This document shows, piece by piece, positions 3,634-21,101 of a stretch of 64,000 nt of DNA (position 1 is its first letter; every line of letters begins with the position of its first letter). Source of the DNA: an uncultured Arachnia sp. (GTDB lineage: Bacteria; Actinomycetota; Actinomycetes; Propionibacteriales; Propionibacteriaceae); assembly GCA_947499145.1 (NCBI GenBank), contig CANMNB010000012.1, positions 1 to 64,000 on the forward strand, written 5' to 3'. A program made the position numbers and the translations under genes. Under the pieces are notes generated by a model. It had not been told where the DNA came from. It was given only the letters and a program-made list of their open reading frames with translations, and searched no databases.

Positions 3634-4479
3634 TCAGCGGATCTGGCTGAACGAGAAGGTCCGCGGGTCCTGCCCGATCCGGTTGCCCGACTCGAGGGCA
3701 TCGAGCCGCGCTCGCTGCTCCGCGTCGAAGCTGATCGCCTCGAGGTCGGAGTTCTCCGCCATCCGCTGGGCCGAGACGGACTTCGGGATGATGATGTTGC
3801 CCCGGTCAAGGTGCCAGCGCAGGACCACCTGGGCGGGCGTGACGCCGAGGTCGGAAGCGATCTCCACCACCGCGTCAGTTCCCAGGTCAGCTCCCTGCCC
3901 CAGCGGCGAGTAGGCCTCGACGTGCACGTCGTTGGCTCGGCACCATTCGACAACCTTCGCCTGTTGGTAGGTCGGGTGGAGCTCAATCTGGTTCGCGTGG
4001 GGCATCAGGCCGCCGCGATCCCGGAGTTCCTCGAGGTGCTCCACGAGGAAGTTCGACACACCGATTGACCGGACCCGCTGGGCCTCGTAGAGGCTCTGGA
4101 GCTGCTCCCAGCTCTCCTGCCAGAGTCCTGCCACCGGGTTCGGCCAGTGGATGAGGTAGAGGTCGAGGAAGTCCAGGCCCAAGCGCTCGCACGACTCCTC
4201 ATAGGCCCGGAGCGCCGATGCCCGCCCTTGGTCACCGTTGCGCAGCTTGGAGGTGACGAACACCTCCTGGCGCGGCAGGCCGGACGCCCGCAGAGCGGCT
4301 CCGACCTCCTTCTCGTTGGCGTAGGCGGCAGCCGTGTCGATGTGCCGATAGCCGAGCTCGAGGGCCTGTTCCACCACGGACTGCGCGGATCCACTGTCGA
4401 CCTGGAAGACGCCCAGGCCGACCTGCGGCACCTGCACGCCATTGGCGAGGGTGATCCTGCGATTCAGGGATGATGTCAC
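3634..4479 (-). CDS. Aldo/keto reductase (2,5-diketo-D-gluconate reductase-like)
   Basis: A 281-residue NADPH-dependent carbonyl reductase of the AKR superfamily. The catalytic tetrad is intact: Asp48, Tyr53, Lys78 and His111 (numbering from the GTG at 4479). The frame is open to 4560, but a strong ribosome site (GGAGGAG, complement of 4486-4492) sits before the GTG at 4479, and that length fits the AKR5 family. It probably reduces small aldehydes and ketones; the physiological substrate cannot be told. It is transcribed alone, divergent from meaB. Confidence 0.88.
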   Translation of the reverse strand: MTSSLNRRITLANGVQVPQVGLGVFQVDSGSAQSVVEQALELGYRHIDTAAAYANEKEVGAALRASGLPRQEVFVTSKLRNGDQGRASALRAYEESCERLGLDFLDLYLIHWPNPVAGLWQESWEQLQSLYEAQRVRSIGVSNFLVEHLEELRDRGGLMPHANQIELHPTYQQAKVVEWCRANDVHVEAYSPLGQGADLGTDAVVEIASDLGVTPAQVVLRWHLDRGNIIIPKSVSAQRMAENSDLEAISFDAEQRARLDALESGNRIGQDPRTFSFSQIR

Positions 4480-17786: not shown

Positions 17787-19295
17787 GTGACTGACCAGAG
17801 CCCCGCCCCCATCAGCGACTCCGAGCAGACCGCGATCCGCAAGGAGAAGCGGGAACGACTGCTGGCCGGCGGACACGAGCCCTACCCGGCGGATCTCAGG
17901 CGCAGCCACACGCTTGCCGAGGTACGCGACCAGTGGGGCGACCTCGAGGCCGGGGAGGAGACCGACGACGTGGTCTCCGTCGGCGGCAGGGTGGTGTTCA
18001 TCCGCAACACCGGCAAGCTGTGCTTCGCCACGTTGCAGGACGGCTTCACGGCCGACAACAACGGGGAGCGGCTCCAGGTGATGCTGTCGCTGGCGGAGGT
18101 GGGCGAGGAGCAACTGGCTGCATGGAAGGCCGACGTCGACCTGGGCGACCATGTCTTCGTCACGGGCCGGGTCATCGCGTCAAAGCGCGGCGAGCTGTCG
18201 GTGATGGCCAGCACGTGGCGAATGGCGAGCAAGGCACTGCGTCCCCTCCCCGTGCTCCACAAGGAGCTCTCGGAGGAAGCGCGGGTGCGCCGTCGGTACG
18301 TCGACTTGATCGCCCGCGACGAGGCACGCGCCATGGTCCGTACGCGCGCGGCAGTCACTCGCTCGATCCGCGAGACGCTGCACGACCGCGGGTACATCGA
18401 GGTCGAGACCCCGACGCTCCAGCTCATCCACGGTGGCGCTGCTGCCCGCCCCTTCACCACGCACCTCAACGCCTTCGACATCGACATGACACTCCGGATC
18501 GCTCTTGAACTCCACCTGAAGCGGACGATGGTCGGCGGTGCGGACCGGGTGTTCGAGATGGGCAGGATTTTCCGCAACGAGGGAATCGACTCCTCCCACT
18601 CCGCGGAGTTCACGATGCTCGAGGCCTACCAGAGCTGGGGGGACCAGGAGACCATCGCGCAACTCATCCAGGACATCATCGTTGCCGCCGCCGACGCCGT
18701 CGGATCCCGGCAGGTCGAGTCCGCCCACGGCACGATCAACCTCGACGGCGACTGGCCATGGATCCGATTCTTCGACGCCCTGTCGGAGGAACTCGGCCGG
18801 ACGATCACCGTCGACACCCCCGTGGCGGACCTCCACACAATGGCCGACGCTCGGGAGATCGAGTACGACCCGAAGTGGGACGCGGGGAAACTGGCGATGG
18901 AGCTGTTCGGCGATCTTGTCGAACCGCGGCTGATCCAGCCCACTTTCGTGTACGACTACCCGTCGATCGCCCAGCCGCTGGCGCGCCAGCACCGCAGCGA
19001 GCCGGGCAAGGTCGAGGCTTGGGACCTCATCATCGGAGGTATGGAACGCGGCACCGGGTTCACCGAGCTGATCGACCCGGTGGTACAGCGCAAGGTCCTG
19101 ACGGCGCAGTCGCTCAAGGCTGCGGCAGGCGACCCGGAGGCAATGCAGTTGGATGAGGACTTCCTCGAGGCGCTCGAGTACGGCGCCCCGCCGATGGGTG
19201 GGCTCGGACTGGGCGTGGACCGGTTGGTCATGCTCTTCACCGGCGCCGGCATCAGGGAGACGATCCTCTACCCGCTCCTGCGCCCCCAGCACTGA
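17787..19295 (+). CDS. lysS: Lysyl-tRNA synthetase, class II
   Basis: A 502-residue class II synthetase. The N-terminal OB-fold anticodon domain (about residues 60-160) contains GGRVVFIRNTGKLCFATLQD; motif 2 is FEMGRIFRNEGID and motif 3 is GLGLGVDRLVML. The frame is open upstream through the transaldolase gene, but the GTG at 17787 gives the usual length. TAGGAT at 17773-17778 lies eight bases before it with no ribosome site, suggesting a leaderless transcript. Confidence 0.94.
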   Translation: MTDQSPAPISDSEQTAIRKEKRERLLAGGHEPYPADLRRSHTLAEVRDQWGDLEAGEETDDVVSVGGRVVFIRNTGKLCFATLQDGFTADNNGERLQVMLSLAEVGEEQLAAWKADVDLGDHVFVTGRVIASKRGELSVMASTWRMASKALRPLPVLHKELSEEARVRRRYVDLIARDEARAMVRTRAAVTRSIRETLHDRGYIEVETPTLQLIHGGAAARPFTTHLNAFDIDMTLRIALELHLKRTMVGGADRVFEMGRIFRNEGIDSSHSAEFTMLEAYQSWGDQETIAQLIQDIIVAAADAVGSRQVESAHGTINLDGDWPWIRFFDALSEELGRTITVDTPVADLHTMADAREIEYDPKWDAGKLAMELFGDLVEPRLIQPTFVYDYPSIAQPLARQHRSEPGKVEAWDLIIGGMERGTGFTELIDPVVQRKVLTAQSLKAAAGDPEAMQLDEDFLEALEYGAPPMGGLGLGVDRLVMLFTGAGIRETILYPLLRPQH

Positions 19296-19374
19296 CCGGC
19301 GGCGACCTCTCGCGCTGCGGCACCGCGGGACTCGGAACGGGTCCCGGGATCCAAGCTGGCGCGCCGGGTGCGGT

Positions 19375-19446
19375 ACACAAATCTGCGCATGGGTAGCGAT
19401 CTTCCACATGTGCAGACATCGGCACCCATGGGAAGATCCGTGGCCC
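19375..19446. repeat. Upstream palindrome flanking the AbiEi/DUF559-like gene
   Basis: This 72-base element aligns without gaps to 20313-20384, with 56 of 72 positions identical by my count. Its centre is CACATGTG. It can be read as four related half-sites (consensus about ATCTGYNCATGG), two pointing right and two left of the centre. Between the two copies, positions 31:38 and 32:37 around the centre change together (C:G to T:A and A:T to C:G), so pairing is kept while sequence changes. This fits a hairpin, cruciform or dyad binding site under selection. Confidence 0.8.
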
Positions 19447-19511
19447 AACGGTTCTCCACAGAGCGGTGACGGGCTTGGTCATCGCACCTCCTTCACAACC
19501 ACAGTGACTGT

Positions 19512-20330
19512 GTGGCCACGTCCCCGCTCCTCTCCTACCAAGACCTCCTCGCCGACAGCGTGACCAGACGTCGCATCCGAACCCTGCTTGCCTCGGGCCA
19601 ACTGACGCGAGTCGCTCGCGGGTGGTACACCGTCGGGCAGCCTGACCCCGACGTCGTCACCGCCATCCGTGCTGGCGGAAGGCTCGGGTGCCTGAGCGGG
19701 TGTCGTCATCACGGTCTGTGGGTCCCACCACACGCGGGCGTGCACGTCGTTGGGGGCCGGGGCTGGAACCCTGCCTGGGCCCCGGGGCTGGTGCTGCACC
19801 CCGGCGCCTCGGCCCAGACCGGCCTCCCTGTATGGCCAGTGGCGGACTGTGTGGCACAAGTCGCGCACCGGCATGGCCTTGAACCTGGCCTCATCGTCGC
19901 CGAGTCCGCCGTCCATCTGGGAAGGCTGGGTCTCGACGACGCACGCGCAGCCCTCGCGCATACCCCTCGGTTGGATCGGGGCCAACTGGACTGGCTCGCG
20001 CCGGCGGAGTCCGGCAGCGAGACCCGGGTGAGGCTGTTCCTGCGGCAGAGTCGGGTGCCCGTTCGAGCGCAGCAGCTCGTTCCAGAGGTCGGTCGCGTCG
20101 ACCTCCTCGTCGGCGACTCGCTCATCATCGAGTGCGACAGCGCAGCCCATCATGGCGAAACCAACTACGAGGCGGACCGCCGCAGGGACCTGCGCGCCCG
20201 CAACCTCGGCTACGACACTCTCCGGCTCAGCTACCAACAGATCTGGAACGAGTGGAAGAGCACCACGGCGAGCCTGTACAGGATCATCCGGCAACGTCGA
20301 CACCTCAGAGGGCCACAGATCTGTACATAG
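19512..20330 (+). CDS. AbiEi-like winged-helix plus DUF559 (Vsr-like endonuclease fold) protein
   Basis: A 272-residue protein. The N-terminal third, with RIRTLLASGQLTRVARGWYT, resembles the winged-helix domain of AbiEi-type antitoxins and regulators. The C-terminal part (about residues 195-270) resembles the DUF559/Vsr-like PD-(D/E)XK nuclease fold: VDLLVGDSLIIECD gives the D...E-x-(C/K)-type core, then DRRRDLRARNLGYDTLRLSYQQI. No AbiEii partner is next to it. No good ribosome site precedes the GTG. It is bracketed by two related palindromes, and its last residues and stop codon are encoded inside the downstream one. Such proteins are common in actinobacteria but their biological role is not established. 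Confidence 0.75.
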   Translation: MATSPLLSYQDLLADSVTRRRIRTLLASGQLTRVARGWYTVGQPDPDVVTAIRAGGRLGCLSGCRHHGLWVPPHAGVHVVGGRGWNPAWAPGLVLHPGASAQTGLPVWPVADCVAQVAHRHGLEPGLIVAESAVHLGRLGLDDARAALAHTPRLDRGQLDWLAPAESGSETRVRLFLRQSRVPVRAQQLVPEVGRVDLLVGDSLIIECDSAAHHGETNYEADRRRDLRARNLGYDTLRLSYQQIWNEWKSTTASLYRIIRQRRHLRGPQICT

Positions 20331-20384
20331 GTGGTGATCTTGTCCATGGACAGACATCGGCACGCATGGGCAGATTTGTGGCCC
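20310..20384. repeat. Downstream palindrome flanking and overlapping the AbiEi/DUF559-like gene
   Basis: A 75-base dyad. The outer arms GGGCCACAGATCTG (20310-20323) and CAGATTTGTGGCCC (20371-20384) are complementary at 13 of 14 positions, with the other position a G:T pair. The centre is the perfect 12-base palindrome TGTCCATGGACA. Bases 20313-20384 match the upstream copy over its full 72 bases. The left arm is also coding: it specifies the final GPQICT and stop of the gene. Size, spacing and orientation suggest that gene and palindromes form one unit. Confidence 0.82.
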
Positions 20385-20482
20385 GCTGGAGTCACCCGAG
20401 TGTTGGGGGGAGGGTCTGCTGCCCGAGGCAGACGCCGCCCATGCCCACAGCTTCGGCATTACCGCCACGCTCGCAGCCTTGC

Positions 20483-20500
20483 TGAGTGAGCACTCACTCA
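20483..20500. promoter_or_regulatory. TetR-type operator
   Basis: TGAGTGAGCACTCACTCA is a perfect inverted repeat with 8-base arms and a 2-base centre. It lies 13 bases before the tetR start and overlaps or abuts a -10-like TAGACT (20502-20507). It is the likely autoregulatory site of the TetR protein and hence of the exporter genes. Confidence 0.8.
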
Positions 20501-20513
20501 CTAGACTTGCCCG

Positions 20514-21101
20514 GTGACCCGAGCCACCCCACTCCCCCCCGAGGAACGGCGAGCTGCCATCATCGCCGCCACCGTCCCACTCCTCCAGACCCAGGGGGAG
20601 ATGATCACCACCAAGCAGATCGCCCAAGCCGCCGGCGTGGCCGAGGGCACCCTCTTCAGGGTCTTCGACTCCCTCTCCGACATCCTCGACGCCACCGTCG
20701 CCGCCTACCTGTCCGTCGATCGCCTGGACGAACAGCTGGCGCACACCGAACTCGGAACCACCATCGAGGAGAAGACCCGCTCGGCGATCGCCTGGATCGA
20801 CGAGGACTTCGGCGCGATGCGAACGCTCTTTGCCGCCGCCCACCTCAACGGCGGCGCCCAGCCCCACGCATCGTCCTGCCTCCGCGACCAACTCGGCCTC
20901 CGCGCCCAGGCCGTCACCGAATGGTTGCAGGGCCAGTTCGCGCCGAACACCCATGAACTGGCTGTCGACGCCGCAACCTACGTCGAGTTGCTGCGCACCC
21001 TGGCGCTTGGGCATGCGAGCCGCTTCGGCACCCCGGTACTCGACATCGACCAACTCACCCGCTTCGCCCTCGACGGCGCACGTCGGAAGGACGCCGCATG
21101 A
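20514..21101 (+). CDS. TetR-family transcriptional regulator
   Basis: A 195-residue repressor. The N-terminal helix-turn-helix is typical (about residues 25-55: TTKQIAQAAGVAEGTLFRVF), followed by an all-helical ligand-binding domain. The gene overlaps the first exporter gene by ATGA, so regulator and transporter are one transcript, and a dyad operator lies directly upstream. It probably senses a substrate of the pump. The GTG start is six bases after TAGACT with no ribosome site: probably leaderless. Confidence 0.92.
   Translation: MTRATPLPPEERRAAIIAATVPLLQTQGEMITTKQIAQAAGVAEGTLFRVFDSLSDILDATVAAYLSVDRLDEQLAHTELGTTIEEKTRSAIAWIDEDFGAMRTLFAAAHLNGGAQPHASSCLRDQLGLRAQAVTEWLQGQFAPNTHELAVDAATYVELLRTLALGHASRFGTPVLDIDQLTRFALDGARRKDAA

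Follow-up and report, generated by a model that had tools for sequence, protein, structure and literature searches.

A predicted Vsr-fold nuclease gene bracketed by dispersed cognate palindromes: a probable REPtron-like system with a non-HUH enzyme

The closest described system is the REPtron, in which a RAYT gene is flanked by palindromes whose abundance is tied to the cognate gene (PMC3686654; also the passages on REPtrons and RAYTs in PMC3733652). The portions of this literature drawn on here also describe REPINs (PMC3116915) and report that TnpA-REP and REP sequences co-evolve (PMC8266576). Measured against those portions, the locus analyzed here, which lies in a window of 64,000 nucleotides from an uncultured Arachnia sp., resembles a REPtron in that a single gene is flanked by palindromes, the dispersed cognates are mostly intergenic, their abundance follows the gene, and enzyme and palindrome co-evolve. 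It is unlike a REPtron in that its enzyme joins a predicted Vsr/EDxHD-fold nuclease to an AbiEi-like part, as opposed to the HUH tyrosine transposase; in that its palindromes are mostly single, about 55–90 bp long and without a conserved GTAG end tag; and in that about 4–15 copies were found per genome compared with tens to a thousand, a low number that counts against the likeness. Since the enzyme is not an HUH transposase, we do not call the locus a REPtron, but it may work like one: it is probably one of a REPtron-like system composed of a nuclease and its cognate palindromes. The first-pass annotation came close with a REP- or MITE-like element carrying a Vsr-like nuclease, as a gene of predicted Vsr/EDxHD fold is indeed bracketed by palindromes that also occur dispersed without it. 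The features of the locus are given in Table 1.

Table 1. Features of the locus, in positions of the 64,000-nucleotide window.
Feature	Position	Strand	Remark
Palindrome copy 1	19376..19446	+	Upstream of the gene; started at 19375 in the first-pass annotation
Open reading frame, 272 aa, GTG start	19512..20330	+	AbiEi-like N-terminal part and predicted Vsr/EDxHD-fold nuclease
Winged-helix part, residues 5–40	19524..19631	+	AbiEi_4
Nuclease domain, residues 166–264	20007..20303	+	Invariant S167, E170, D197, E207, D209, H214, D222, R225
Palindrome copy 2	20314..20384	+	Downstream; shares the last 17 bases of the reading frame

The direct neighbors of the gene encode a lysine--tRNA ligase and a TetR-type regulator; the lysS–tetR interval is rearranged among the 39 genomes of the genus sample (Tessaracoccus, the genus being inferred), which makes it unusable for the empty-site comparison proposed in the first-pass annotation. 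Within the encoded protein, an AbiEi structural match spans residues 2–163, and the AbiEi-like part and Vsr-fold nuclease jointly span residues 2–264 according to Pfam, PADLOC, PHROGs and a confident protein model. The N-terminal part is a winged helix of the kind found in the antitoxin of AbiE type IV toxin-antitoxin systems. The C-terminal part has a predicted catalytic fold of the Vsr type and conserved acidic and histidine residues, as in the EDxHD/Vsr superfamily, with six of these residues (E170, D197, E207, D209, H214, and D222) invariant across 74 sequences. The window protein scores above the cut-off for PF04480 (DUF559; 23.2 vs. 20.6 bits) and below that for PF18741 (REase_MTES_1575; 29.2 vs. 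38.2 bits). Most members in the genus match these families (17 and 20 of 22, respectively, at E ≤ 0.1), the names of which carry no association with palindromes. The protein contains these two parts rather than the HUH Y1 tyrosine transposase of TnpA-REP/RAYT systems; no HUH protein was among the protein-comparison matches listed, which by itself excludes nothing.

Other described systems also differ from this arrangement. Unlike the genes of I-Bth0305I and related EDxHD homing endonucleases and Vsr, the gene lies between palindromes rather than in an intron or intein, its product is fused to an AbiEi-like part, and no methylase is encoded by the two neighbors tested. A homing endonuclease gene is located in or next to the site that its product cleaves and is copied into empty alleles; here palindromes bracket the gene, and both cleavage and gene copying are putative. 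Unlike the AbiEi antitoxin, the protein contains a nuclease domain, and the AbiEii nucleotidyltransferase toxin is absent from both directly adjacent genes.

The palindromes surround this single gene as direct, ungapped copies, as had been proposed from a first reading, with 56 of 71 bases identical (79%; BLAST E = 7e-12). Each is imperfect, being complementary at 20 of 33 opposed bases, and folds modestly as a single strand (z = −1.8 and −2.8). Four further copies were found at E < 1e-6 in the same assembly (G000; 2.88 Mb, 26 contigs), none of them overlapping a predicted gene. The four half-sites once read in each copy were not borne out, given that ungapped repetition between the outer and inner halves of an arm was no greater than chance across 19 palindromes (best match of 12: mean 6.37 vs. 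6.08 when shuffled). Two compensatory pairs near the center, C:G to T:A and A:T to C:G, can be read directly between the window copies, but the conserved structure deduced from them finds better support elsewhere. Among the six copies of this family in its own genome, 75.3% of cells are paired, compared to 26–48% in slid controls; this level was reached by 488 of 500 shuffles and the two pairs changed on both sides by 499 of 500. Because covariation is thus no higher than in shuffles, conservation of structure cannot be claimed from the window family alone.

Arm covariation is evident in the best-sampled family, the sister type of genomes G028 and G030 (L012 type). Its 25 palindromes, 11 from G030 and 14 from G028, form an ungapped alignment of 72 nt, and 89.1% of cells are paired (slid controls, 24–47%), with changes on both sides at 14 of 34 pairs and in 83 cells. 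None of 500 shuffles reached the observed values for paired cells, both-side cells, or covariation score; the remaining two of five measures fell within the shuffle range (both-side pairs, 392/500; pair types, 177/500). For the G011 type, represented by 12 copies in G011 and a single copy in G028, 82.1% of cells are paired and the 14 double-changed pairs were reached by only 2 of 500 shuffles, while paired cells and covariation score were reached by 60 and 54, respectively. The ends of the palindromes vary by type (CTGCA, CACA, or CTCAC), and no GTAG or CGTC end tag was found: GTAG is internal in type A4, and neither A5 nor the window type conserves it.

Homologues of the gene (E ≤ 1e-10) are present in 21 of the 39 genomes, with up to four matches per genome. 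The 30 loci examined comprise L001, L002, and 28 more, as three of 33 matches lacked a locus. By manual tally, repeats or palindromes that match each other flank the gene both upstream and downstream at 24 of these loci, the counterpart of the cognate palindromes that flank a RAYT gene. Palindrome scores ranged from 15 to 34.6 at 23 of the 30 loci, with those of L036 and L038 located away from the gene, against a background of at most 14.4 in 90 random sequences drawn from a Markov-1 model at the length of a locus. At one locus (L034), a clear palindrome stands to one side of the gene only, and five (L025, L026, L036, L037, and L038) have either none or different repeats in their place. The lack of palindromes at L025 counts against our preferred reading, given that its orthologues L033 and L039 carry them. 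The sequence of the palindromes varies among gene lineages, yet the upstream and downstream copies of one locus are alike. Across 19 loci, palindrome similarity correlated with protein similarity (Mantel rho = 0.41, p = 5e-4), the coefficient being 0.43 for the winged helix and 0.26 for the nuclease. The second homologue in the window's genome, L002, is 36% identical and is bracketed by a different palindrome.

Several loci show additional peculiarities. The palindrome is doubled on one side of the gene in L015, L020, and L021, together with neighboring sequence in the first two, and a GC-rich short-period tandem array adjoins the palindrome at L021:2431-2652 (G015) that is missing or different in the orthologous L020. 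In the homologue of G010 and G015, a TGA at residue 265 is the natural stop. The L035 homologue (G015:C1:71830-72629) yields two overlapping partial matches and looks broken, as these lie in different frames. A further type of about 75 bp (GCACAACTGTGGCC...) is present in two copies on each side of this gene (L035:862-1093 and 2124-2379) and also at L173:1738-1821 and 3695-3785, L207, and L250; it is dispersed in G010 and G015, with about nine similar places in G010. Beside the palindrome at L173:1908-1962 (G015:C1, ~504.3 kb) lies a short sequence with more than 20 matches in G010, some of them clustered, that is another repeat family of these two genomes.

Copies without the gene exist alongside those that bracket it, and they are dispersed in the same genomes. 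This was found for the window type and for four types searched throughout the genus, each of which is dispersed where its own gene lineage is present and nearly absent elsewhere. Counting the one to three places at the gene itself, the L012 type occurs in 2 of 39 genomes, both carrying this lineage of the gene (12 places in G030, 15 in G028); the L021 type likewise in 2 of 39 (seven places in G010 and six in G015); and the L013 type at 13 places in G011 and at a single place in each of G028, G030, and G010. The L002 type occurs at 14 or more places in G000, 12 of them besides the gene-flanking pair, and elsewhere as at least three matches of 35–36 bp, one each in 3 of the 38 other genomes; in most genomes these counts rest on 23 first-look candidates. 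Given that the window and L002 types are both dispersed there, the window's genome holds two gene-palindrome pairs, and a separate dispersed set belongs to each. Among 39 dispersed copies, 35 do not touch a predicted gene, in line with the intergenic dispersal of REP sequences around a REPtron. The other four overlap a predicted gene, three partly (L184, L193, and L299) and one (L303) wholly inside an open frame of 1332 codons, which counts against the reading. Using genes predicted by a simple GC-position heuristic, 19 copies lie between convergent, 15 between tandem, and four between divergent genes, with one at an edge.

This distribution bears on the possibility that the gene encodes a stand-alone autoregulator of the AbiEi type, with the flanking palindromes as its operators and the dispersed copies as its regulon. 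The N-terminal fold is AbiEi-like, one palindrome is usually directly upstream of the reading frame, and the part of the source drawn on here reports that inverted repeats in their own promoters are bound both by Rv2827c and by the S. agalactiae AbiEi antitoxin (PMC7319586), which by analogy suggests that the AbiEi part may bind inverted repeats here too. Operators would not, however, call for a similar palindrome downstream of the gene, nor for six invariant nuclease residues, and an orthologous site without a palindrome exists. Furthermore, the dispersed copies are ill-suited to act as operators, as they are most often between convergent genes and seldom between divergent ones. We therefore consider this explanation unlikely. 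The self-regulating AbiEi module with operators suggested by the first-pass annotation accounts for the bracketing but not for the placement of the dispersed copies, and no AbiEii neighbor accompanies the gene.

The same intergenic positions, often at convergent gene ends, would also suit hairpins useful to the host as RNA, i.e., bidirectional terminators or mRNA-stability hairpins beside which the gene lies by chance, and some copies do form strong hairpins (e.g., L007; z = −6.3). Nevertheless, none of the 39 dispersed copies has a T-tract (five or more T among the 8 nt that follow either arm), no terminator-like site was found within 19200-20600, and no Rfam family reached threshold in the pieces searched, where only hairpin-like microRNA models appeared below it. 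On these grounds we rejected intrinsic terminators and known RNA families. Chance residence of the gene also fits poorly with the finding that palindrome type tracks the resident gene, and we give the RNA explanation very little credence.

Comparison of the same sites between species further distinguishes the palindromes from their surroundings. At two orthologous sites, the palindrome is of the type specific to the genome it occupies. The gene pair around the L190 palindrome of G028 holds a G011-type palindrome in G011 (L305), whereas in G031 (L248) the same pair is separated by 21 bp only and contains no palindrome; the flanks of G011 and G031 are 78 and 85% identical. Likewise, G011 carries its own type (L297) at the L176 site of G030, with flanks of 81 and 88%. 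The in-register identities of 0.61 (L297/L176) and 0.57 (L305/L190) compare with 80–88% in the flanks and with means of 0.55–0.56 for any two copies across the two genomes and 0.79–0.81 within a genome. G030 and G028, in contrast, share the same type (0.81) at the L178/L191 site. Between G011 and G028/G030, palindromes thus diverge faster than their flanks; no such difference was seen in the comparison of G010 with G015. At the single clean presence/absence site, L305 and L190 against L248, there was no clear target-site duplication of the kind that, with terminal inverted repeats, marks a MITE of a DDE transposon. The comparison at L177 was not clean: the sequence of G028 diverges right next to the palindrome, and G011 shows no difference in length. 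The second of two G010/G015 sites compared for emptiness is a repeat-rich region.

In following the type of their genome, the dispersed palindromes evolve in concert, together with the resident gene. The simplest cause we can offer is that sequence is copied between sites. Alternatively, the palindromes and a protein of changing specificity may have drifted jointly and gradually: identity between types is 0.55, compared to 0.25 for random palindromes, and this common skeleton means that co-evolution could have proceeded gradually without copying between sites.

The gene itself behaves differently from the palindromes. Flanking DNA is shared around the genes of seven sets of loci from different species; for example, L012 and L014 are alike on both flanks and L013 on one (approximately 80–84% where aligned). 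The gene therefore appears to be inherited largely at a fixed site, with the palindromes dispersing around the genome. This counts against a composite mobile unit, in which palindrome, gene, and palindrome would move together as a transposon and dispersed palindromes would be relics left after gene loss. Such a unit would explain why the same element stands at both ends and why a genome may contain several paralogues (up to four matches) of differing types. It would not explain the shared flanks, nor why the L012 type occupies 12–15 places when one gene of that lineage is seen per genome, and we regard it as highly improbable. The second flank, which adjoins the gene in G028 and G030, is some 5 kb away from L013 in G011 and next to another G011-type palindrome (L295 and L013, at 212.9 and 217.8 kb of G011:C22), and palindromes may mark points of rearrangement.

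We propose the following mechanism for the REPtron-like system. A largely vertically inherited gene would encode a protein that combines an AbiEi-like part for DNA binding with a domain of the Vsr/EDxHD homing-endonuclease type; two palindromes of the type it recognizes would bracket the gene, with gene-less ones occupying mostly intergenic sites. The winged helix would bind its own palindrome, and the protein would nick or cut it or the cruciform it can form. Repair would then copy palindrome sequence from one copy to another and occasionally into a new site. Such a cycle, in which we infer that the protein acts as mobilizer through binding, cutting, and copying of the palindrome, would account for the single type shared by the copies of a genome, the shift of this type with the resident gene, and the joint change of both arms.

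The findings suggest an undescribed kind of self-spreading DNA that is REP-like in its working but uses an enzyme unrelated to RAYT. Among the literature matches listed, which leave subscription papers mostly outside their scope, titles and abstract openings contained no description of an association between this gene and palindromes. If the proposal is correct, a large family now annotated as antitoxin or unknown nuclease is the engine of a palindrome-based mobile element, REP-like populations arose with an enzyme other than the HUH transposase, and annotations such as "DUF559" and "AbiEi family antitoxin domain-containing protein" have so far concealed the class. The matched enzyme-substrate pairs at each gene offer material for tests of co-evolution between a nuclease and long palindromes, and the site-by-site species comparisons provide a case of concerted evolution in dispersed repeats.

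The association extends beyond the genus. One scan with the genus alignment recovered 243 relatives, and the analysis used the best 80 named loci among them; all are actinobacterial except L142, which is titled Acidobacteriaceae. Palindromes scoring at least 18 were present on one or both sides at 40 of the 80 loci, compared to 5 of 280 control window pairs drawn from the same loci (Fisher p = 3e-25), and those scoring at least 14 at 65 loci, compared to 21 controls. Repeats between the upstream and downstream sequences were detected at 35 of 79 loci vs. 6 of 280 controls at E ≤ 1e-5, at 25 vs. 5 at E ≤ 1e-8, and at 45 vs. 36 at the looser E ≤ 1e-3. A palindrome score of at least 16 or a repeat at E ≤ 1e-5 marked 62 of 80 loci and 14 of 280 controls. 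With a slightly longer upstream stretch, and ten genus loci left out, 53 of 70 loci were positive. Two observations count against the association, namely the 18 of 80 loci that lack this combined signal and the strong repeats at five of the 280 control pairs. When the arms of 43 of the best palindromes were set side by side, the sequences were very different but the palindrome was retained. On balance, we lean toward the view that these palindromes are a widespread actinobacterial form of mobile DNA whose spread and genome-wide concerted turnover are driven by the AbiEi-like/homing-endonuclease-fold protein, and which arose independently of RAYT and REPIN but is convergent with them.

Dispersal outside the genus could be followed in Tsukamurella tyrosinosolvens, where repeats bracket two of the three homologues. 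One of these has a 73-bp palindrome with four more full-length copies (74–78%) in the same strain, none of which falls under an annotated gene and three of which lie between convergent genes; a comparison with 72,556 plasmid-labelled records gave no match to this type from any other strain. The second type matched only itself, with no dispersed copy, which counts against the reading. The records concerned (NZ_LR134454, LR134459, LR134461, LR134465, LR134466, and LR134468) are labelled as plasmids of T. tyrosinosolvens NCTC13231, though several carry serS, pheA, rpsO, hemB, and the like, and resemble pieces of the chromosome. A distant homologue (32%) is also encoded at MT839994.1:3329-4135, in an unannotated 4.9-kb record filed as phage.
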